DNA from: Corynebacterium sp. sy039
GTDB taxonomy: Bacteria > Actinomycetota > Actinomycetes > Mycobacteriales > Mycobacteriaceae
Direction of reading: 5' to 3'
DNA: 64,000 nucleotides
Assembly (NCBI RefSeq): GCF_007904105.1
Contig: NZ_CP042325.1
Coordinates: 930,001 to 994,000 of the forward strand
Shown piece by piece: positions 14,279 to 50,315 of the stretch (the stretch's first letter is position 1; every line of letters starts with the position of its first letter). The position numbers and the translations under genes are program-made. Under the pieces are notes generated by a model. That model saw only the letters and a list, made by a program, of their open reading frames with translations. It searched no databases and was not told where the DNA came from.

Positions 14279-14309
14279 TTGAGATTATCGTGCGGGGGGG
14301 GGGCATAAT
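14279..14309 (+). promoter_or_regulatory. Promoter with G10 tract in the -35/-10 spacer (candidate phase-variable switch)
   Basis: TTGAGA (14279-14284), nine bases, ten G (14294-14303), then CATAAT (14304-14309). The spacer is 19 nt; 17 nt would be optimal. It lies about 65 bases before the ABC ATPase start. The same arrangement recurs at 47524-47554. A 29-codon ORF (ATG 14248, stop 14340) also runs through the tract, so a translated role cannot be excluded. Confidence 0.6.
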
Positions 14310-14374: not shown

Positions 14375-15028
14375 GTGCTTGAGGTTAAGGATGTAGTTAT
14401 TCGTATCGGGGGAAAAACTATTATTGAAAAGGCACGTTTTAATGTTGCTCCTGGGAGTCTTATTGCTATTTCAGGGCATTCTGGAAGCGGTAAAACAACA
14501 TTATTACGTAGCATTATGGGGATTACTCAGCCAGATAGCGGTTGTATTTCACTTGGTGATTTGGTTTATTCTGATCTATCTGCTCAACAGCGTCGAGCTT
14601 TTAGGCTAAAAAATATTGGCATTGTAGATCAAACAAGCAGCTTAGTCGAAGAATTAACCTGTGCGGATAATGTTCGCTTGCTTTGTGAAGCAAGCGGGAT
14701 GCGCTCTCGTGATGCCAAAGATATGGCTTATGATTGTTTATCCAGAGTGGGGATGGCTGATTATGCTTCTCGAGAACCTGAAACACTTTCTGGTGGTCAA
14801 CGTCAGCGAGTTGCTATCGCTTGTGCGTTAGCGACGAAACCACGTCTTATTGCGGCAGATGAACCGACATCAAGTCTGGATGATTCTTCGACGGAACAAG
14901 TTGTGGCTGCTTTGCGGGAAATAGTGGAAAATAGCGACATACCTGGTGTGATTGTGACTCATGATTATCGTGTTAAAGAAAAAGTGGATCAGGTTTTGGA
15001 GTTGAGAAATGCTACGATTTGCGGCTAA
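14375..15028 (+). CDS. ABC transporter ATP-binding protein
   Basis: The 217-residue ATPase shows Walker A GHSGSGKTTLL, signature LSGGQRQRVAIACAL, Walker B LIAADEPTSSL and H-loop VTHDYR. It starts at GTG behind GAAAG and overlaps the first permease gene by 20 bases, so the three genes form one operon. It resembles the LolD/MacB type used for extraction or export of peptides and lipids. Expression should depend on the G-tract promoter upstream. Confidence 0.8.
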   Translation: MLEVKDVVIRIGGKTIIEKARFNVAPGSLIAISGHSGSGKTTLLRSIMGITQPDSGCISLGDLVYSDLSAQQRRAFRLKNIGIVDQTSSLVEELTCADNVRLLCEASGMRSRDAKDMAYDCLSRVGMADYASREPETLSGGQRQRVAIACALATKPRLIAADEPTSSLDDSSTEQVVAALREIVENSDIPGVIVTHDYRVKEKVDQVLELRNATICG

Positions 15029-15845
15029 ATTCGCGCAGAAAAACAAAGTGGAAATCATTGTCATGTCTCTTGTGAGTATGAGCGTAGCTCTTTTAGCAGC
15101 TTTACCAGTTGCGGGGATTGCAGCGCTATGGTCGCATAATAATCGCATGGAATGGGCACAAAATCTGGAGCAACAACATGGAGGCGTGACTAAGTTTCTG
15201 TATGCGGGGAGTTCTCAGGTAACTGTTACGCAGGTCGACCAGGCAACTTTATCCTCGATAGTGGGTAGCTATCCCCAACCATTAAACTGCTTTTTCACTG
15301 CCGGAAAAGACATAGATACCATGCAGATAGCGCAGCTACAAGAACGTGGTTGCAAGAATTTATCTACGACGTATTCTGCAGAGGATAACCATACAATTAA
15401 TCTCGTAGAGTCGAGTGATAACTCAGCATCTGATGAGGTAGCTAATCATTTTATTTCCGAACTTGATGACATAACCCGCTATGTCACCCTTGTCTATTAT
15501 CTTGTTCTTGTTTTGCCTAGCATTATTGCTTTCTGGCAATTATCAAAGCTTTTCGACGATAACTCACGCTCCATGCGTATGCGGCTCATTATGCGTGGTG
15601 TACCAGCTAAAACCATTGGCGTAGTATCGTCGGCAGCAAGTATCTGCGCCCATAGTATTGGCATTATTTTTGCTGCACTTCTTTTGGGAATAATACTGTA
15701 TTACCTACGAGATATTGAGTGGCTAGCACAAGGTTTCACCGCAACTGACCTCTTCCAAGGCTGGATAAGTGGTTGTGTGATCATCATAGGGATAGCACTA
15801 TTGCACACAATTCTTGTTACCTACCGGAGGTCAAAGGATGTCTAG
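15009..15845 (+). CDS. FtsX-type permease, first half-protein
   Basis: The 278-residue protein has one helix at residues about 18-40, an extracellular part with two Cys (..QPLNCFFTAGKD.. and ..ERGCKNLST..) and three C-terminal helices (..YYLVLVLPSIIAFWQL.. and onward). This is half of the usual two-repeat FtsX permease. The second half is encoded separately just downstream, overlapping by eight bases. No stop or frameshift suggests recent breakage, so the transporter is probably a natural heterodimer. Confidence 0.7.
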   Translation: MLRFAAKFAQKNKVEIIVMSLVSMSVALLAALPVAGIAALWSHNNRMEWAQNLEQQHGGVTKFLYAGSSQVTVTQVDQATLSSIVGSYPQPLNCFFTAGKDIDTMQIAQLQERGCKNLSTTYSAEDNHTINLVESSDNSASDEVANHFISELDDITRYVTLVYYLVLVLPSIIAFWQLSKLFDDNSRSMRMRLIMRGVPAKTIGVVSSAASICAHSIGIIFAALLLGIILYYLRDIEWLAQGFTATDLFQGWISGCVIIIGIALLHTILVTYRRSKDV

Positions 15846-17130
15846 TCAAAGAATATCTAGGTGGCAATCATATTCGGGAATACTATTCATTCCATGCGGC
15901 ATAGTTATCGCCGCAGTATTGCTTTTCCTCTCAGAAATGTATATGGTGCCGATATTGATTCCGCTTAGTTTCCTCGTTGCCTTGGCAGCATTATTGTTGG
16001 CAGCACCTGCGATTGCACGTTTGTGCGCGGGACTATATCGGCTTATTTTTAGGACAGGCGTGAAATATGAACTCATGGCTGCTTCTTTAGAGAAAAGGGC
16101 ACATTCCATTGGGATAAGCGTCGTACTGCTTACTGCTATATCGAGCTGTGCCTCTTTAACAACGGGACTAATACAAACAGGATTAGGTGAAATACCAGAA
16201 ACAAGCGGATATTGGAAAGCACAGATAAGCACTGCTTCGGTATCACATGGGGTGAGTCGTGAACAAGCTACTGATTTTGTAAAAGATAAAGGGGTGGTAC
16301 TTGGTGAAGCACGGATTCTGCTTTCTGCATCAGAAACAACGAATGTTTTTATTGGTAGTTGTGCGGATTATGCTGCCTATTCCAATGATGATCCACAGTG
16401 CCCTAAGGAAACTGATATGGCACCAGAAACATTGTATGTACCAGCAGATAGTAATAATTCTTATGCGGATGCACAGTTATTCTTTCCGGATATAGATGAC
16501 ACGAAAAAATATGATTTATCCACTGTTCACGTACAAAAAGTACCAGGTTTGACCGAGACTATTTTGTCTACGCATAATCAAGAAATACTTGCGCAAGGAC
16601 TCCTTTTTGTGCTTGATGAAACTCAGTTTTCTCTGACACAATTCCTAGAGTTTCTATCCCATACTGAGGTGGGGATAACAGACCAGGAGCATATTGACTA
16701 CACACTGTTTATGATGAAGCATTCTTATGCTGCACTAGGCAAGATATTAGTGATAGTGCTTATGGTTTTTGCCAGTTCGGTAGTGGTTGCGATTGCAGTG
16801 TGCGCAGCATTGCGCCGTAGGAAACTCGTGGAGTCTTTAGAATTGCGAGGCGTAAAACCGTCGATAGCAAAAGGAATACTTCGCTTAGAGTGCGTGGGAT
16901 TAACTTTGCCTTTTGCTTGTGGTGGCATAGCGGTGGGCAGTATTTTTGCCATGCTCATTGCTCAAGCGTCGAGTATGAACTACCGTGATGTTAATCTGCT
17001 CTTTTCTCTTGGCGAATGCTTTGTGTTGGTCATTATGGTGTTGGTTGCAACCGAGCTAGTGCTGCGGTTCAGTGAGCGTGCTGTGTCTAAAGGAGATCAG
17101 GAACTTATTACTTCTGCAGTGAGCTCATAG
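15838..17130 (+). CDS. FtsX-type permease, second half-protein
   Basis: ATG follows ACCGGAGG at good spacing and overlaps the end of the first half-permease. The ~430 residues start with two hydrophobic segments (..SGILFIPCGIVIAAVLLFL..), continue with a loop and a helix near ..HSIGISVVLLTAISSCASLTTG, a large extracellular domain with a Cys pair (..GSCADYAAYSNDDPQCPKE..), and end with three helices (..AALRRRKLVESLELRGVKP.. is the FtsX loop). It would pair with the 278-residue half and the ATPase. The 3' end overlaps the convergent FHA-like gene by 34 bases. Confidence 0.7.
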   Translation: MSSQRISRWQSYSGILFIPCGIVIAAVLLFLSEMYMVPILIPLSFLVALAALLLAAPAIARLCAGLYRLIFRTGVKYELMAASLEKRAHSIGISVVLLTAISSCASLTTGLIQTGLGEIPETSGYWKAQISTASVSHGVSREQATDFVKDKGVVLGEARILLSASETTNVFIGSCADYAAYSNDDPQCPKETDMAPETLYVPADSNNSYADAQLFFPDIDDTKKYDLSTVHVQKVPGLTETILSTHNQEILAQGLLFVLDETQFSLTQFLEFLSHTEVGITDQEHIDYTLFMMKHSYAALGKILVIVLMVFASSVVVAIAVCAALRRRKLVESLELRGVKPSIAKGILRLECVGLTLPFACGGIAVGSIFAMLIAQASSMNYRDVNLLFSLGECFVLVIMVLVATELVLRFSERAVSKGDQELITSAVSS

Positions 17131-27526: not shown

Positions 27527-28704
27527 GATTTGTCTCCTGTCGTTAGCCTGGTTCGTCCACTTAATAATTCCTGCATCAAGCCTTGTTTGATTGCTTTGGT
27601 GGATTCAAGTTGTTTTTCGAGAGCCTGGATTTTCGCATCAGCAGCGTCTAGGATTTCAATAATCTTAGTTTGCTCAGATACTTCTGAAGGGTATTGAATT
27701 TCAATGGGGGATACGTCTTTTGCATGGACGTGGGGTTGTGCACCGCCAGTTTGAGATAGAAAAATCTGATTCTGTTTCAGTTTAAGTAAGTAAAAAGCAT
27801 ATTTAAGTGTGATGTCTTTTGCGTGAGACACAGTTGTGCAATCAGATGCCCAAATATCGGAGTCATGCCAAGCTACATAACCAGCATTCGCCCCTGAGGA
27901 GCTAATAGAAATCACAGGTCCTTTTCTGTTTGCTGTATCGATGTAATCTGCAGGTTTAATGCCTGCTGCAATAAGTGGGATCGATCCATGTTTTATTTGG
28001 TGAGGAACCGAGGAACCTCGGATGAATTGTAAGACGTTACCAAAAGTAGATATATTCCATTTTTCTGAAAAGCTCGGTAAACGAGTCTTGCCGGTCAGGA
28101 GTTCCTGCATCAAGCCTTGCTTGATTGCTTTGGTGGATTCAAGTTGTTTTTCGAGAGCCTGGATTTTCGCATCAGCAGCGTCAAGAATCTCAACTATTTT
28201 CTTCTGAATCGGTAGAGGTGGGAGTAGGATTTCAAGATTATTTAAATCAGAAGCATAAATATGATAAACGGTTGAACCCCTTACCAATTTCAAAACTTTC
28301 TGTTCGTTATGCCGTATTAAATAAGCAATGAATGGTGCGAATGCTTTGTCTGGTGATAAACGCATGATTAGTATATCGCTGCCGAGGATTATATCCGGTT
28401 TCGTTAAAGCACTTGCCTTCGCTAGACCATGTGGTGTTACATCTGATGTTGGCATAAGTACGTCATTGTTGCTTGAAAAAGATTTTCCAGTCCATTCTGT
28501 AGTGCTTTTAATTTTATTGATTCTTGCACCGTAGTCAGTGAAAAGTTCACCGTAATGTATACATTTGTTCTTTTTGCTGGTTCCTATTATCGATTTAGGT
28601 AGTCCAGTTCCTTTGCTGAAGTCTGCAATATCGCCAATTCGTGTCAAATTCCAATCCGTAGTATCAGTTGGCACATGATTCTTATCGGTCAGGAGTTCCT
28701 GCAT
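27523..28704 (-). CDS. hsdS: Type I restriction enzyme, specificity subunit
   Basis: 393 residues with two target-recognition domains: TRD1 (residues ~10-150, ..WNLTRIGDIADFSKGTGLP..) and TRD2 (~205-350, ..WNISTFGNVLQFIRGSSVP..). Each is followed by the same conserved helix (EILDAADAKIQALEKQLEST..QELL), encoded by nearly identical 80-bp repeats. HsdS chooses the bipartite DNA target. The start shares its A with the TAA of the downstream hsdM frame, as expected for translational coupling. A longer frame from 28728 is unlikely. Confidence 0.85.
   Translation of the reverse strand: MQELLTDKNHVPTDTTDWNLTRIGDIADFSKGTGLPKSIIGTSKKNKCIHYGELFTDYGARINKIKSTTEWTGKSFSSNNDVLMPTSDVTPHGLAKASALTKPDIILGSDILIMRLSPDKAFAPFIAYLIRHNEQKVLKLVRGSTVYHIYASDLNNLEILLPPLPIQKKIVEILDAADAKIQALEKQLESTKAIKQGLMQELLTGKTRLPSFSEKWNISTFGNVLQFIRGSSVPHQIKHGSIPLIAAGIKPADYIDTANRKGPVISISSSGANAGYVAWHDSDIWASDCTTVSHAKDITLKYAFYLLKLKQNQIFLSQTGGAQPHVHAKDVSPIEIQYPSEVSEQTKIIEILDAADAKIQALEKQLESTKAIKQGLMQELLSGRTRLTTGDKS
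27569..28182. repeat. 80-bp direct repeats in hsdS, with an 18-bp third copy at its start
   Basis: 27569-27648 and 28103-28182 differ at one base. The 18 bases at 28093-28110 recur at 28687-28704 around the hsdS start codon. Recombination between copies would delete or swap a recognition domain. Confidence 0.85.
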
Positions 28705-31153
28705 TATATCCCCATTTCCGCAAGCCAATTGTCTAATACTGCTTTGGTAGCTTCTAGTTCGGCTTCAAGCTCTTCTACCGTCACGGCATAGCGGTTACCG
28801 AGTTTTATTAATCTTTCGTTGAGTTTTTGTTGAATCTCAAGTTCAATTTGTCTGAGTCGTTTTTCTATAGAAACTCCCCATTTATCCATCACGACCAGCT
28901 GTCGTACCTCATTAGGAGTCAGGATCGGATACTTTTTGAGTACAGCAAAATCTAGTTCGAGTGTAGCTTCCTTCACTTGCTTCTTTGCTTTAGCTTCTGC
29001 TGAGAATAACTTGCTTGCATAATTAAGAGCTTCGATCTCTTCAGCATCAGCATTTTCTGCTTTAGCGGCCTTCAGGCGATCAGTAATATCCTTTTTCTTA
29101 ATGCTGCCATCGTCGTTAACTGCTTCATAAAGAAGTCCTTCCTCAGCAGAGTTCTCGTCCAAGTATTCTGCGAGCTCCTGCACTGCTTGCTCTTGGTGCT
29201 GAGTAAGCTGTTCAAGCTCTTCTTGTTCAGCAGGGAAATAGCGGTCAATAATGAGCTGCGGTGGGATTAAATCAGTCACCCAACGTTGAGTCTTCGTGCC
29301 AGTGCCGAACTTAATATCTGCGTCTTCGTATTTTGGCTTTTTCTTGTTGTCATAGCCGGTGATGCGAGCCTCACGAGGCTGAGCAGCTTCTTTCCAATCT
29401 GAGTGCATAATCAGAGCAACATCATCGTGCATCGTCTCATGCCAGTAGCTCATCAATTGTTCATAGGCACTATACTCACTGATCAGTGGGCGTCTTTTAA
29501 ACTTTTCTAATAAATCGTCACCAAGGATTTGGATAAGTTCATGCGGGGGGGGGTCTGTGAATCAATGGATTCCAAGGTTTCCCTATGGCTAGCCCACCAC
29601 TCTTCAATATGCCGCGAATTGATGTCTTGGAAAACCTTTACGTCGTTAGAGCTTTCAATAGTCTCAGCGACTTCTTCTGTTTTAACAGTTAGTTCAACAT
29701 AACCATCACGGAGAGGCTTAAAGAGCTCTTGTCGAAGATTTGGAAAAGCCTGCCAGTAGTCATCCAACGCATCAATATCTCGAATAGGAATACCACCGTT
29801 GAGATGTCCTCCCAAATCTTGGATGTCCTCAGGTTCTGAACTATCAATGTAACGAGGAATATTGAGATTGTAATTATTTTTTGGATCAGCGATTTCTGAA
29901 ATCGGAACCATACGAGAATAGCGTTCCTCCTCAATAAGACCCAAGTAAGTGTCCGTAATTTTACGCATATCTCGTGAACGGAGACGGTTTTTAGCCCCGT
30001 CCTTTATAAATCCCTTTGAGGCATCAATCATGAAGATCCCCTTACGGTTTGCAGCATCATTTTTATCGATCACGATGATAGAAGCCGGGATACCTGTGCC
30101 GTAGAACAAGTTGGCAGGTAAACCAATAATGGCCTTGATGAGACCACGCTTAATGAGTTCTTGACGGATAGTCGCCTCAGCATTGCCGCGGAATAATACA
30201 CCATGTGGCAAAATTACTGCACCACGACCATTAGGTTTGAGAGATTTCAACATATGAAGAAGGAAAGCATAATCACCATTCTTCTCTGGAGGTTCAGCGA
30301 AACCATCAAAGCGCCCGAATTGGTAATCGAAACCATTCTTCCAAGTCTTAACGGAGAATGGAGGATTGGCTACGAAATAGTCGAAAGTCTGAAGTTTATT
30401 ACCGTCATGAAACTTAGGGTTTGCTAAAGTGTCACCTTGCCTGATTGTGTGTGTTTCATTATTATGCAAGATCATATTCATGCGAGAAAGAGCCCAAGTA
30501 GCGTTATCTTTTTCTTGACCATAAATAGTCAGACCATTCGGAGATTCGTCAGCAACTTTGATTAGCAAGGAACCAGAACCACAGGTCGGGTCATAGACTG
30601 TTGTAGATTTTGGAGCATTACGTGGAATCTCAAGAAGTTTAGCCATAACACGAGAGACTTCAGCTGGGGTGTAGAACTGCCCCTTGCTCTTGCCAGATTC
30701 CGTAGCGAAATGGCGCATAAGATACTCGTAAGCATCACCAAGAAGATCATCCCCCTCTGCTCGCGAACCAGAGAAATCGATATCTTCGAAGATACCAATC
30801 AAATTACTCAAGGTGTCCTGCATTGACTTACCTTCACCCAGCTTGTTTGGGTCATCAAAATCAGCGATGTTAATGACTCCTTGGAGATCATTAGCTTCAG
30901 CTAGGAGACGAATAGCTTTGTTAATTTCTTCACCAATATTGGTTTTGCCTTTGAGGGTGATTAAATGATCGAAAGAAGCACCTTCGGGTATATCTATAAG
31001 GCTAAAAGGGTCGCTTTTAGCCTTATCGGAAACATACTTGACGAAGAGTATCGTCAGTACATAGTCCTTGTATTGACTGGCATCCATACTTCCGCGAAGT
31101 TCATCTGCACTTTTCCAGAGCGAACTATACAGATCGGACTTTTTCAAGGCCAT
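28704..31153 (-). pseudogene. hsdM: Type I methyltransferase subunit, out of frame at a C9 tract (candidate phase-variable gene)
   Basis: From 31153 the frame encodes ALKKSDLYSSLWKSADELRG, SAM motif YDPTCGSGSLLI and catalytic NPPFS, then reaches C9 (sense strand) near residue 535 and stops eleven residues later. In the +1 frame the protein continues ..HELIQILGDDLLEKF.. EYSAYEQLMSYWHE.. to ..LDNWLAEMGI at 28706, where the stop overlaps the hsdS start. One extra C (or two fewer) restores an HsdM of 816 (or 815) residues. The present state lacks the ~270-residue C-terminal part that usually contacts S and M. A sequencing error in the homopolymer is the main alternative. Confidence 0.85.
29545..29553. 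repeat. G9 homopolymer (C9 in the hsdM sense)
   Basis: Nine G in the plus strand; the only such tract inside a gene in this window. Its length sets the hsdM reading frame. Confidence 0.9.
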
Positions 31154-31432
31154 TACCACGTCACCACCTTTAGAACCTACAGGTTATTTTTGCTCATACT
31201 TACTGTACTTTTATCTTCAGCTATCACTTGTTTGACTCGCTTACAGGATCGAACACAATGCTGTGATGCAATGTTCAAATTATATTCTGCGAATTGGTGT
31301 TGTGCCTGAGAAGTTAAGAATATAGGTAGTGCCGTATCATTTTTGGACGGTATGTGTGGTGCGCATCCAAACGTTGCCTAGTCCCTTCTCTTCTGATGGA
31401 TCTTCACTTTAGGTGGCACTAGTGGAGAACAG

Positions 31433-46596: not shown

Positions 46597-47478
46597 ATGT
46601 CTATAACGCTACGTCGATGTGCTGCATATATGACTGTGATGACGATAGGTGCTTTTACCACGTTTTTCCCTAGCGCTCGAGCTATGGAGAGCACAACCTT
46701 TGCTCCGGATAATACGGAGAGTAACGCTGTGGTTGCCACGCAGATAAGCGATCGGGGAGACAAAGACGGTGATTGCACTGGTACAGCTATTACACCGCGA
46801 TGGGTGATTACGGCACGTCATTGTGTTGATGGATATGATGAAGACGGTACTGCAAAACCTTCGGGAAGTATTCGTTTAGGCCAAGGCGATAAACAGTACC
46901 GTGTGGGAGTTGATGGGTGGTACTGTGCGCCAGAAGGAGATATAGCACTGCTGCACACTACTGAGGATATGAAACTCGGCTCATATCCACAGCTTGCTCA
47001 ACAGGTGCCGCAACCTGGGTCGGAAACTGTGACTTATGGTTGGTCACCGGATGGTTCAGGAGGAACTACTCGCCTTCCTATGGCTGTGGGACAGCTAGAT
47101 CGGTATGAAGAATTATCTCTTTATGGTGGTAAAAATGTGGGGGTGGTAAACCTCAAAGGTGGTGCAAAAATTCAGCCAGGGGATTCTGGTAGTCCCACAT
47201 TTGTTCAAGGTAGACTGATCGGTGTTAGTACAGCATCACCCGGAGATGATGCTGATGGAAAAGCATCCCAGTTATATACCAGCCCTGTAGCGAATGTGTA
47301 TGGGTGGATTGCCGGTATGATTGCATCCGACGAACTTCCTCAGGATACTAAGCAACAAGGGAGTGGCAAAGAGAAAATTCCTGTAAAGACTCCTATTTTG
47401 TTGGGGAGTATTGCAGTATTAGTGTGTGTTTTCATCGGCGGCGTGTATGTGATTCGCAGCGGACGAGAAAACACTTGA
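46597..47478 (+). CDS. Membrane-anchored trypsin-like serine protease
   Basis: 293 residues: a signal sequence to about residue 28 (..FFPSARA), catalytic His in ITARHC, Asp in PEGDIALLHT, Ser in QPGDSGSPTF, and a C-terminal membrane helix (PILLGSIAVLVCVFIGGVYVI). The active site should face outside. AAAGGAC precedes the ATG. It lies before the bacteriocin transporter and might process secreted or surface proteins, perhaps the bacteriocin; that is inference. Confidence 0.8.
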   Translation: MSITLRRCAAYMTVMTIGAFTTFFPSARAMESTTFAPDNTESNAVVATQISDRGDKDGDCTGTAITPRWVITARHCVDGYDEDGTAKPSGSIRLGQGDKQYRVGVDGWYCAPEGDIALLHTTEDMKLGSYPQLAQQVPQPGSETVTYGWSPDGSGGTTRLPMAVGQLDRYEELSLYGGKNVGVVNLKGGAKIQPGDSGSPTFVQGRLIGVSTASPGDDADGKASQLYTSPVANVYGWIAGMIASDELPQDTKQQGSGKEKIPVKTPILLGSIAVLVCVFIGGVYVIRSGRENT

Positions 47479-47523: not shown

Positions 47524-47554
47524 TTGCATTTTTCTCACGGGGGGGGGGCAAGAT
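47524..47554 (+). promoter_or_regulatory. Promoter with G10 tract in the -35/-10 spacer upstream of the bacteriocin transporter
   Basis: TTGCAT (47524-47529), nine bases, ten G (47539-47548), then CAAGAT (47549-47554): a 19-nt spacer, with start codon about 35 bases further and AAGGAGG in between. The arrangement copies 14279-14309 base for base in spacing. An inverted TCTTGC/GCAAGA also flanks the tract. Confidence 0.65.
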
Positions 47555-47588
47555 TTTGTGTTAACTGCAAGGGTTTTAAGGAGGCGTT

Positions 47589-49664
47589 ATGTCGCAAAGC
47601 ACCACGGGTGAGAAACGGCTGTTTTCTGTGCATAGTAATGCTAGCTCTGGCACGATTCTTATTCGTTGTGCTTTGTTTCTCGCACTGTTGTTAGGTGCAA
47701 TACTGGGTTACTGGGCGAGTACAACGATGGAGCAAGAGGGGCTTCCAGGTGTCAATGCTGTGGTAAGTGTGAGGAGTCTTGCCAAAACACAAAAGCAACC
47801 AGAACAGGTATTAGAAGATTTATCGCAGATCGCTAGACAACATCGAGCGTTGTTAATGGTGCAGTTTCCTGACCCACAAGGGCGTATTGTGTATGGTGCT
47901 GGCGGCAAACTTGATGTATGGCACAAAAATGGCTATCGCGGATTACCAGGTACGCCGTCGACGGTTGTTAAAGAATTGACTGATATTCCGCATGAAGAAT
48001 ATCGCCAAATGTTTGAGCTTTCAGGCTCCAAGAAGTTTCACGAGGCTGTGTTTGCGTATCTCGATAGCCAGGGAATAAGCCATCAGCAATATCCTTTGAC
48101 AGAGTGGACTTTTTTACTTACCGGTACTGCACTGGGTGAGCTTACCGCCTTACTTCTTGTTTTCTGCATAGCCTTTTGTCTCATTGGTGTCATTCTCAAT
48201 GCGCACGCTGATTCTGTACGCGCTTTACATGGTTTTGGTTTATGGCGTAGTGCTCAGTATGAGTTGCATAGGGCATTTTCTAAGAGCGTGTTGATAATTG
48301 CAGTGTGTGTTGTAGCTTGTGTTGGGGTTTTTGCTGCGTTGAGTAATTCCCAATCTGCTATGCAACTAGCGCATTATCAAGCAATTTTTGTGGGTATTGC
48401 TCTTTGTGCTTGTGTGCTTTCTGTTTGGTTAGGGTTGTGTGCATTGCGCTGTGCTTCCATTGTTTCCCTGCTATCAGGAAAGTTGCCAAGCAAGGCAGTA
48501 TTGGGCAGTGTTTTTCTTATTCGTATTGGTGCTTGTATGTGTGTGGCATCGTTGAGTATAGGAATTTTTAACTACAGCAGTGAATGGTGGAAACAGCATA
48601 AGGAAGTACCAGTTTGGGTGTCGGAAAGCACGGTATATAGCGCTAGTGTTACTGGGGCTCGTGAGCTGACAGAGATGCGTGAGGCATGGGAGTTATTATC
48701 ACGGCAGCTGCGAGAAATGTCTGCGCAAGGAAGTGTCCTCTATGCGAAATATCTTGATTATGCAGTGGTGCCGAACTCGCAACTTAATCGAGATCTGTTG
48801 TTTTATAATGAATCGGCTGCACGACGATCATTGGATGGTGCATTGGAAAAAGCATATCGCAAGTCGCCTTATGATAGTGAAACTAGGGTATTTATTCCTG
48901 ATTCGATACCACAAAATTTAGATATAACATCAGAGCTAGAACGATATGGTGTTTCTGTATCCCAGGCACGCATTAGCACGTATGCATCGGGTAGCAGTCA
49001 TGGAAAGTCATGGGAAGTTGGTGATAATGAGTGGATAAACCGTGCATTGATTGCTGATCCAATAGTGGTTGTATATCCAAATAATTTAGAACAGATAGGT
49101 GATCGTAATCTTGTTGCAGCTCTTACTCAGAAAGATGTTCTGTTTACGCAGTATTCACATTTTCAAGAGCTGGCTGAGGATCCACTGATAGGTAATTTCA
49201 TAAGGTCAGCGGAACTTATGAGTCAACAATGGGCACAGCATCATCAAACTTTGGGGAAAGTAGTCTGGATTTATGCTGGTGCATTGATTGCTGCTTTGTT
49301 TTTGAGTGTGGTCACAGCTTTAGCTGTATGGTATAGCTGCTTAAAAGTTTTTCATCAACGATTGCGTGCAACCTATATACATGGTGTGATTCCCACGGTT
49401 CTTTTTAGTGTCTTATTGGCAATAGAAGCTGGGATAGTTGTTCTGGTAGCGGGATTTTTGTGGAGCCGTGCAGCCCGTTTCCGAGCTTGGTCGGAAGGCG
49501 GGGCATTAGCAGGTGCTGCAGATCCATCACTTATGGCTGCTTTTCATGTATCAAACTTTTCCTGGTTGTGTTCTCTCATAATCGCTGTGGTAACAGCTTT
49601 GCCAATTACAGCTTTATGGTTGCGCCATGTAAGCACAGCTGAATTGATACATACAAGGAGGTAA
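47589..49664 (+). CDS. Bacteriocin-associated integral membrane (BIM-type) permease
   Basis: 691 residues. One helix near residues 24-44 is followed by a soluble extracellular part, then helices around 180-205, 230-255, 265-290 and 310-330, a second extracellular region, and three terminal helices. This resembles FtsX-like permeases of lactococcin-972-type systems (BIM proteins), which work with a small ABC ATPase. AAGGAGG precedes the ATG. The ATPase follows four bases later and the bacteriocin overlaps the ATPase end, so one transcript from the G-tract promoter should cover all three. Confidence 0.8.
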   Translation: MSQSTTGEKRLFSVHSNASSGTILIRCALFLALLLGAILGYWASTTMEQEGLPGVNAVVSVRSLAKTQKQPEQVLEDLSQIARQHRALLMVQFPDPQGRIVYGAGGKLDVWHKNGYRGLPGTPSTVVKELTDIPHEEYRQMFELSGSKKFHEAVFAYLDSQGISHQQYPLTEWTFLLTGTALGELTALLLVFCIAFCLIGVILNAHADSVRALHGFGLWRSAQYELHRAFSKSVLIIAVCVVACVGVFAALSNSQSAMQLAHYQAIFVGIALCACVLSVWLGLCALRCASIVSLLSGKLPSKAVLGSVFLIRIGACMCVASLSIGIFNYSSEWWKQHKEVPVWVSESTVYSASVTGARELTEMREAWELLSRQLREMSAQGSVLYAKYLDYAVVPNSQLNRDLLFYNESAARRSLDGALEKAYRKSPYDSETRVFIPDSIPQNLDITSELERYGVSVSQARISTYASGSSHGKSWEVGDNEWINRALIADPIVVVYPNNLEQIGDRNLVAALTQKDVLFTQYSHFQELAEDPLIGNFIRSAELMSQQWAQHHQTLGKVVWIYAGALIAALFLSVVTALAVWYSCLKVFHQRLRATYIHGVIPTVLFSVLLAIEAGIVVLVAGFLWSRAARFRAWSEGGALAGAADPSLMAAFHVSNFSWLCSLIIAVVTALPITALWLRHVSTAELIHTRR

Positions 49665-49667
49665 ATA

Positions 49668-50315
49668 ATGCGAATTACAGTAAGAGACGCAAAGAAGACA
49701 GTGGGGACTCGTTCTCATAATCGAGTTTTATGGGAAGGTATCAATGTGGATATTGATACTGGTGAGCGGGTATGTATAACTGGTGAATCTGGTTGTGGTA
49801 AAAGCACTTTGCTTAATTGTATTGGGTTATTGGAAAAATTTGATGCAGGTCAGTTATTTCTCAACGGAGTTGACCTGACGCAAGCCTCAACGCGCACTAA
49901 AATGCGCTTTCGACGCGAAACCATTGGTTATTTATTCCAAGATTACGCGCTGATTGATAATGAAACGGTTGCGCAAAATGTAACTTTAGCGGCGCGCTCG
50001 AATGCTAAGAAATCACCCCAATCTTTGCATACTGCTTTAGAGATTGTCGGTTTGCGGGGGAGAGAACAAGAGAAGGTTTATCAACTCAGTGGAGGCGAGC
50101 AGCAACGAGTAGCAATAGCAAGACTTCTCGTACGACAACCTGACATTGTTCTTGCGGATGAACCTACTGCCTCTTTAGACAGGGGAAATGCTACGACGAT
50201 TCTCGAACAGCTCGATATATTAGCGGCTAAAGGCGCGTCGATAGTGATAGTAAGCCACGATCCGTGGGTTGTAGAGCAATGCGATAGAACAGTGGAGTTG
50301 AAGAAAAATGTCTAA
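49668..50315 (+). CDS. ABC ATPase of the lactococcin-972-type system
   Basis: 215 residues with Walker A GESGCGKSTLL, signature LSGGEQQRVAIARLL, Walker B IVLADEPTASL and H-loop VSHDP. It should energise the BIM-type permease upstream for export of, or immunity to, the bacteriocin. AAGGAGG lies six bases before the ATG. Its end overlaps the bacteriocin gene by eight bases. Confidence 0.85.
   Translation: MRITVRDAKKTVGTRSHNRVLWEGINVDIDTGERVCITGESGCGKSTLLNCIGLLEKFDAGQLFLNGVDLTQASTRTKMRFRRETIGYLFQDYALIDNETVAQNVTLAARSNAKKSPQSLHTALEIVGLRGREQEKVYQLSGGEQQRVAIARLLVRQPDIVLADEPTASLDRGNATTILEQLDILAAKGASIVIVSHDPWVVEQCDRTVELKKNV

Follow-up and report, generated by a model that had tools for sequence, protein, structure and literature searches.

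A probable porA-type poly-G spacer switch before a Lactococcin_972-type bacteriocin operon in the tract-rich genome of Corynebacterium sp. sy039

Introduction

Promoters that carry a repeat tract in their spacer are well known in Neisseria. The porA gene of Neisseria meningitidis has a poly-G tract between its -35 and -10 elements, which changes in one-base steps (PMC3899988, citing van der Ende 1995). In P. acnes (Cutibacterium), the homopolymer HPT_37 is also located between the -35 and -10 elements, and tract lengths of 5 and 7 go with an approximately 2-fold difference in expression; tract variation in this species follows the clades, which the authors read as slow accumulation (PMC4746626). 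The lactococcin 972 cluster is the described system closest to the genes considered here: its orf2-orf3 may code for an ABC transporter with a role in immunity and, when the cluster was cloned in a single vector under its own promoter, promoter mutants only were obtained, according to the cited account (PMC4055356).

Here we describe a bacteriocin operon of Corynebacterium sp. sy039 in which a G10 tract occupies the spacer position of a putative promoter. The sequence comes from a one-contig genome of 2,236,339 bases, and the window, meaning the whole 64-kb stretch that was analysed, corresponds to bases 930001-994000 and has a G+C content of 46%.

Results

Promoter region and gene content of the operon

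A sequence-only reading of the window had pointed to a motif composed of TTGCAT, 9 nt, G10 and CAAGAT, with a spacer of 19 nt, and we found this motif to be exact (Table 1). The permease start codon, which had been placed about 35 bases further on, is the ATG at 47589, with 34 nt separating it from CAAGAT. The ATPase gene begins 3 nt past the permease stop and has its own AAGGAGG, while the bacteriocin gene and the ATPase gene share an 8 nt overlap, so that the three genes form a tightly packed operon. Upstream, a protease-like gene ends 110 nt before the operon. The sigma-A motifs given for C. diphtheriae are ttgcaa and TAgaaT, 16-20 bp apart (PMC5784534), and those given for C. glutamicum are TAnnnT and ttgnca, in a search that allowed 16-19 nt (PMC3890552). 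The putative 19-nt spacer is thus near the edge of the corynebacterial range, yet inside it.

Table 1. Features of the putative bacteriocin-operon promoter, its genes and other tract-bearing sites (window positions).
Feature	Position	Strand	Remark
-35-like hexamer TTGCAT	47524..47529	+	5/6 vs C. diphtheriae motif ttgcaa
TTTTCTCAC (9 nt, hexamer to tract)	47530-47538	+	read directly
G10 tract within putative promoter spacer	47539..47548	+	spacer total 19 nt
-10-like hexamer CAAGAT, weak, abuts G10 tract	47549..47554	+	first T of -10 missing
AAGATT, alternative second hexamer	47550-47555	+	outscores CAAGAT with corynebacterial weights, spacer 20
Ribosome-binding site AAGGAGG	47578..47584	+	ATG 4 nt further on
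Permease gene, BIM-like, 691 aa	47589..49664	+	TIGR01654 25.7 bits; context of homologs
ABC ATPase gene, 215 aa	49668..50315	+	best NCBIfam TIGR03608 L_ocin_972_ABC
Lactococcin_972-type bacteriocin precursor gene, 105 aa	50308..50625	+	PF09683
TTGAGA-9 nt-G10-CATAAT (944294)	14279..14309	+	geometry as in bacteriocin promoter, before ABC operon
ABC operon downstream of 944294 promoter: PF00005 ATPase plus two ORFs with no Pfam match	14375..17130	+	
TTGACA-9-G10-TAGAGT (2040129; L032:3014-3060)	outside window	-	upstream of ABC operon
C9 tract shifting frame of type I methyltransferase gene hsdM	29545..29553	-	pieces 29507-31159, 28704-29456

The bacteriocin precursor passes the PF09683 cut-off (27.1 bits against 22), and its N-terminus appears Sec-like by eye. 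The ATPase scores 227.1 bits with TIGR03608, below the cut-off of 254.85, and this family is still the best among those listed. The permease had been called BIM-type; its own score with TIGR01654 is remote (cut-off 189.35) and it is without a Pfam match, but the neighbourhood of its homologs fits the name. Indeed, Lactococcin_972-like ORFs adjoin 11 of 20 homologous permease loci in a hand-made motif scan (12 loci were positive, of which one, L080, was judged false and dropped), and all five neighbouring ORFs tested, from four loci, pass Pfam. In one genome (G026), Lactococcin_972 genes flank the permease homolog on both sides (L002:1127-1429 and L002:4167-4505).

The ABC pair had also been assigned to bacteriocin export. 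This assignment is doubtful, since the corresponding lactococcin 972 pair is tied to immunity and the precursor has the Sec-like N-terminus mentioned above, and we set it aside on the strength of that immunity link as it is worded in the cited paper (PMC4055356). By analogy, the permease and ATPase probably serve self-protection. With such a role, both the toxin and the protection against it would follow one setting, which would leave OFF cells exposed to ON siblings unless other immunity is present.

Tract and promoter compared with chance

The G10 tract is not a chance run. The window contains 200 G/C runs of length 4, 32 of length 5 and three of length 6, none of length 7-8, then one of length 9 and two of length 10. 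Overlapping G8 words number 8 against 0.54 expected, a count reached in 0/100 shuffles.

The promoter itself was scored with two sets of weights, both of our own making, whose answers differ. With E. coli-type weights, applied to 14 tracts of the sy039 genome, a third of the flank shuffles did as well as the best -35/-10 pair at the G10 tract (p 0.33); the score was 6.0 on the operon strand and 6.1 on the opposite one. Corynebacterial weights gave a shuffle p of 0.064; they were applied to nine of those 14 tracts, including two of the seven surface promoters described below, and to five promoters of relatives, for which the p values are circular because these promoters were found by a pattern already holding TTGA. 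The reported geometry taken by itself (TTG 15 bases before the tract, with A2 and T6 of the abutting hexamer) had a shuffle rate of 0.0037, in a test that is circular for the bacteriocin-operon tract and not circular for the other 41 tracts. The surface-gene promoters ranged from 0.03 to 0.36 with E. coli-type weights and gave about 0.11 for the two that were rerun with corynebacterial weights, so they are not strong by the shuffle measure either. The shuffle p of the 944294 promoter moved from 0.0045 (E. coli-type) to 0.072 (corynebacterial), and that of the 2040129 promoter held at 0.001 and 0.0013. The bacteriocin-operon promoter by itself is weak, and it is the genomic context that makes it credible. 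Of the proposal that a bacteriocin locus lies behind a promoter here, the Lactococcin_972 operon and the spacer position of the G10 hold up, and the promoter match is the weak part.

A TTGACC near 47475 was considered as an upstream promoter and rejected, being without a convincing -10 by eye and absent from a promoter scan. That scan took spacers of 16-18 only and therefore cannot list the reported 19-nt promoter either.

The same geometry at other operons and in other genomes

The exact geometry (TTG, 9 nt, tract, abutting hexamer) was found at two of the 41 other tracts of the sy039 genome, and both of them precede ABC operons (Table 1). All three promoters of this kind stand at exactly G10. 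Shuffle rates for the geometry were 0.0007-0.014 over nine sy039 tracts; a rate of about 0.004 over 41 tracts gives about 0.16 chance fits and hence a probability near 0.01 for two or more, a figure that comes from our own arithmetic and in which paralogs are not independent.

A strict form of this architecture gave nine matches in 3/242 genus genomes, compared with one match in the reversed control, and a single match in 387 genomes beyond the genus (397 genomes minus 10 counted as genus members). A looser form was found in 48/242 genus genomes and in 26/242 for the control, the latter counted by us from the table. Seven of the nine strict matches belong to one tandem family of a single genome (G039), with the form TTGAC-9 nt-G9, G10 or G11-TACGTT. 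This family consists of seven tandem lipoprotein-like genes (L117, G039:C1:2362500-2375000), and the one protein of the seven that was scanned is a Peripla_BP_2 protein. Another design, TTGACAAATGAT(GA)-G10 to G13-C-TT(G/A)AAT, is common to G022 (two promoters), G202 and G211, and three of these four promoters lead into an ORF, our script finding none at G211. In G174 and G087 (L121, L122) a common promoter has G8 in one and G9 in the other, and 77/77 printed flanking bases are identical.

We examined 20 loci with a homologous permease in 15 other genomes of the genus (chosen at E <= 1e-40, some of them ending at contig ends): none has a G/C run of at least 7 or an A/T run of at least 8, an absence that speaks against the spacer-switch reading. 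A DNA search of relatives with the 944294 promoter and ATPase returned short matches within the ATPase gene only, and a permease scan of named genomes found no second sequence of the tract.

Tracts of the genome and slippage in the lineage

The sy039 genome contains 42 G8+ tracts on both strands together. Its 37 G9+ tracts rank it third among 151 genus genomes, behind two drafts of about 20 contigs, one of which (G119) has many of its listed runs at contig ends. Long G/C runs are in excess at recurrent gene or promoter positions, as in contingency-type systems, and replication slips at its tract may tune or switch the bacteriocin operon.

Each of seven intergenic G11-G13 tracts (L013, L014, L015, L017, L034) is followed 43-51 nt further on by a large gene, and these genes resemble one another in their N-termini. 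TGGACA-7 nt-tract is found in six of these seven surface promoters, the exception being 65143, and the one large-gene protein that was scanned has ten DUF7507 stretches. Outside the window, 20 paralogous signal-peptide genes have a C9-C11 tract at one shared position (for example L031:6552-8123 and L018:2872-4509), and as assembled 5/20 of these tracts are in frame and 15/20 out of frame. By its sequence layout this family looks like a switchable surface-protein library, and in our view it is more striking than the bacteriocin-operon tract. A G8 tract also seems, by our own reading, to frameshift an ABC ATPase gene (G000:C1:1274737; L023:3038-3045). The G8 of a galE-like gene matches what we take to be a glycine motif and was left out of the switch count.

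Tract lengths differ between paralogous flanks in the sy039 genome. The permease protein is identical at 683/691 positions to a Corynebacterium sp. sy017 record. The five in-frame signal-peptide genes were compared with their best-matching records outside sy039. The best match of 611298, which has C11 in sy039, is an SY003-named record that is 90% identical over its length and has the same sequence past the tract; its first residues are readable with C9 only, provided that the flanks are as in sy039. In sy039 itself, the annotation of a C9 paralog (P0126) begins at the same unusual start as this record. The best matches of 1782580 (93%, sy017), 1975771 (98.5%, sy017) and 1978839 (96.5%) begin at internal codons, a sign that these counterparts may be out of frame, and that of 1918200 (97%) is in frame as in sy039. 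Of these five coding tracts, all in frame in sy039, four thus seem to be out of frame in the sister strains' records, although annotated starts are gene-caller choices, the records stand for clusters and homopolymers may contain errors. For hsdM, the sister-strain record finishes in the same shifted tail as sy039; the tract is therefore in the same state in both strains, and this result counts against general fast switching.

No MutS match was found in the sy039 genome, in a search that was positive for 11/14 control genomes, and a NucS match is present. In M. smegmatis, NucS leaves 1-2 nt indels unrepaired, which the authors of the cited work connect with homopolymer phase variation (PMC11551767). 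At the sequence level, slippage in the sy039 lineage is supported by the variation among paralogous tracts, the C9-versus-C11 record, the lack of a MutS match and the NucS match.

Discussion

We propose that the G10 tract would be part of the spacer of a sigma-A promoter of the Lactococcin-972-type operon, where replication slippage would add or remove single Gs. Each such step would alter both the length of the spacer and its helical phase, and lineages would thereby inherit differing transcription levels for immunity and bacteriocin jointly, a mode of action like that of the poly-G spacer of meningococcal porA. Output would be expected to be low-to-moderate at G10, to rise at G7-G9 and to be slight from G11 upwards, where the earlier reading had put G8 as the strongest state and G10 as weak. 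We infer the transcription start at the G10 promoter, the variation of the G10 itself and this map of length to output. On balance we lean towards the tract being a slippage-variable promoter spacer, under which reading the operon would probably carry a spacer switch of the porA type, in a genome rich in tracts.

The tract could also slip while lying outside the working spacer, transcription coming from another promoter, from read-through of the protease-like gene or from an internal site, so that its length would matter little. We consider this unlikely, though it deserves attention. Another promoter is suggested by the weak hexamers and by the shuffle p values of 0.33 and 0.064, but the exact geometry recurs at two further sy039 operons and at seven G039 promoters, and the distance of the G10 promoter to the ribosome-binding site and the ATG fits. 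As for read-through, a scan of the + strand between 47300 and the operon found no terminator-like site, so that transcription could continue from the upstream gene. An internal start could use a promoter-like site in the ATPase gene (49875-49903), in a stretch with 3 such sites against 1.6 in shuffles.

If the tract is a true promoter spacer, it might still change only slowly and give strain-to-strain differences instead of an on/off switch. The shared hsdM state in the sister strain is in favour of this, as is the way in which P. acnes tracts track clades in the cited study (PMC4746626), but the apparent frame shift at four of the five coding tracts in the sister strains' records, with the caveats given above, speaks against it, and we find slow change alone improbable. 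The length of a long homopolymer is easily miscalled. A single assembly underlies the G10 reading, and the tract or its length could be an assembly or sequencing artefact; this is very improbable, given that run lengths are bimodal and that the 42 tracts recur in particular settings, with twenty of them at a single site of one gene family and seven in front of related genes. A slippage-variable spacer remains our preferred reading.

If this reading is true, bacteriocin and immunity would be a clonally variable trait, which raises the question of how OFF cells survive ON siblings. More tentatively, we envisage the possibility that placing a bacteriocin and its own immunity under a slippage-switched promoter would divide one clone into immune killers and vulnerable non-producers, a heritable social switch; such a switch would be one among the outputs of a poly-G/C contingency system that spans the genome and also drives the 20-gene signal-peptide library, the seven surface-protein promoters, ABC operons and the type I methyltransferase. 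It seems that sy039 uses promoter tracts and reading-frame tracts side by side, and its relatives repeat the promoter design; the genus, with a NucS match and no MutS match in sy039, could therefore offer a Gram-positive model in which to study variation by slippage.

Our literature search, with most subscription journals outside its scope, gave no report of such promoter switches in Corynebacterium among the matches listed. What is already known is the type of mechanism, described for porA in Neisseria and HPT_37 in P. acnes; what is new is the operon that it putatively controls, the recurrence of this promoter layout within the genus and the dense occurrence of genes with tracts in sy039. 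The operon resembles porA in having a poly-G tract in the putative spacer, but porA is a porin gene from another phylum, whereas the sy039 tract precedes a bacteriocin/immunity operon, and its variation and effect on expression are predicted. HPT_37 is an actinobacterial homopolymer between the -35 and -10 elements, the position proposed for the sy039 tract; it differs in being a short C tract that precedes a methylase-like gene with a leaderless transcript. Within the genus, the G039 promoters share with sy039 the 9 nt followed by the tract and the abutting hexamer, with tract lengths that vary among paralogs, but their hexamers are stronger and their genes form a Peripla_BP_2 lipoprotein family (as judged from one of seven proteins). 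In gene content, the closest counterpart is the lactococcin 972 cluster of the Lactococcus plasmid pBL1, which also combines a Lactococcin_972 bacteriocin with two putative ABC transporter genes; the cited description lists the bacteriocin gene first and, in its account of the cluster, leaves a homopolymer unmentioned, whereas in sy039 the permease and ATPase genes come first (PMC4055356).
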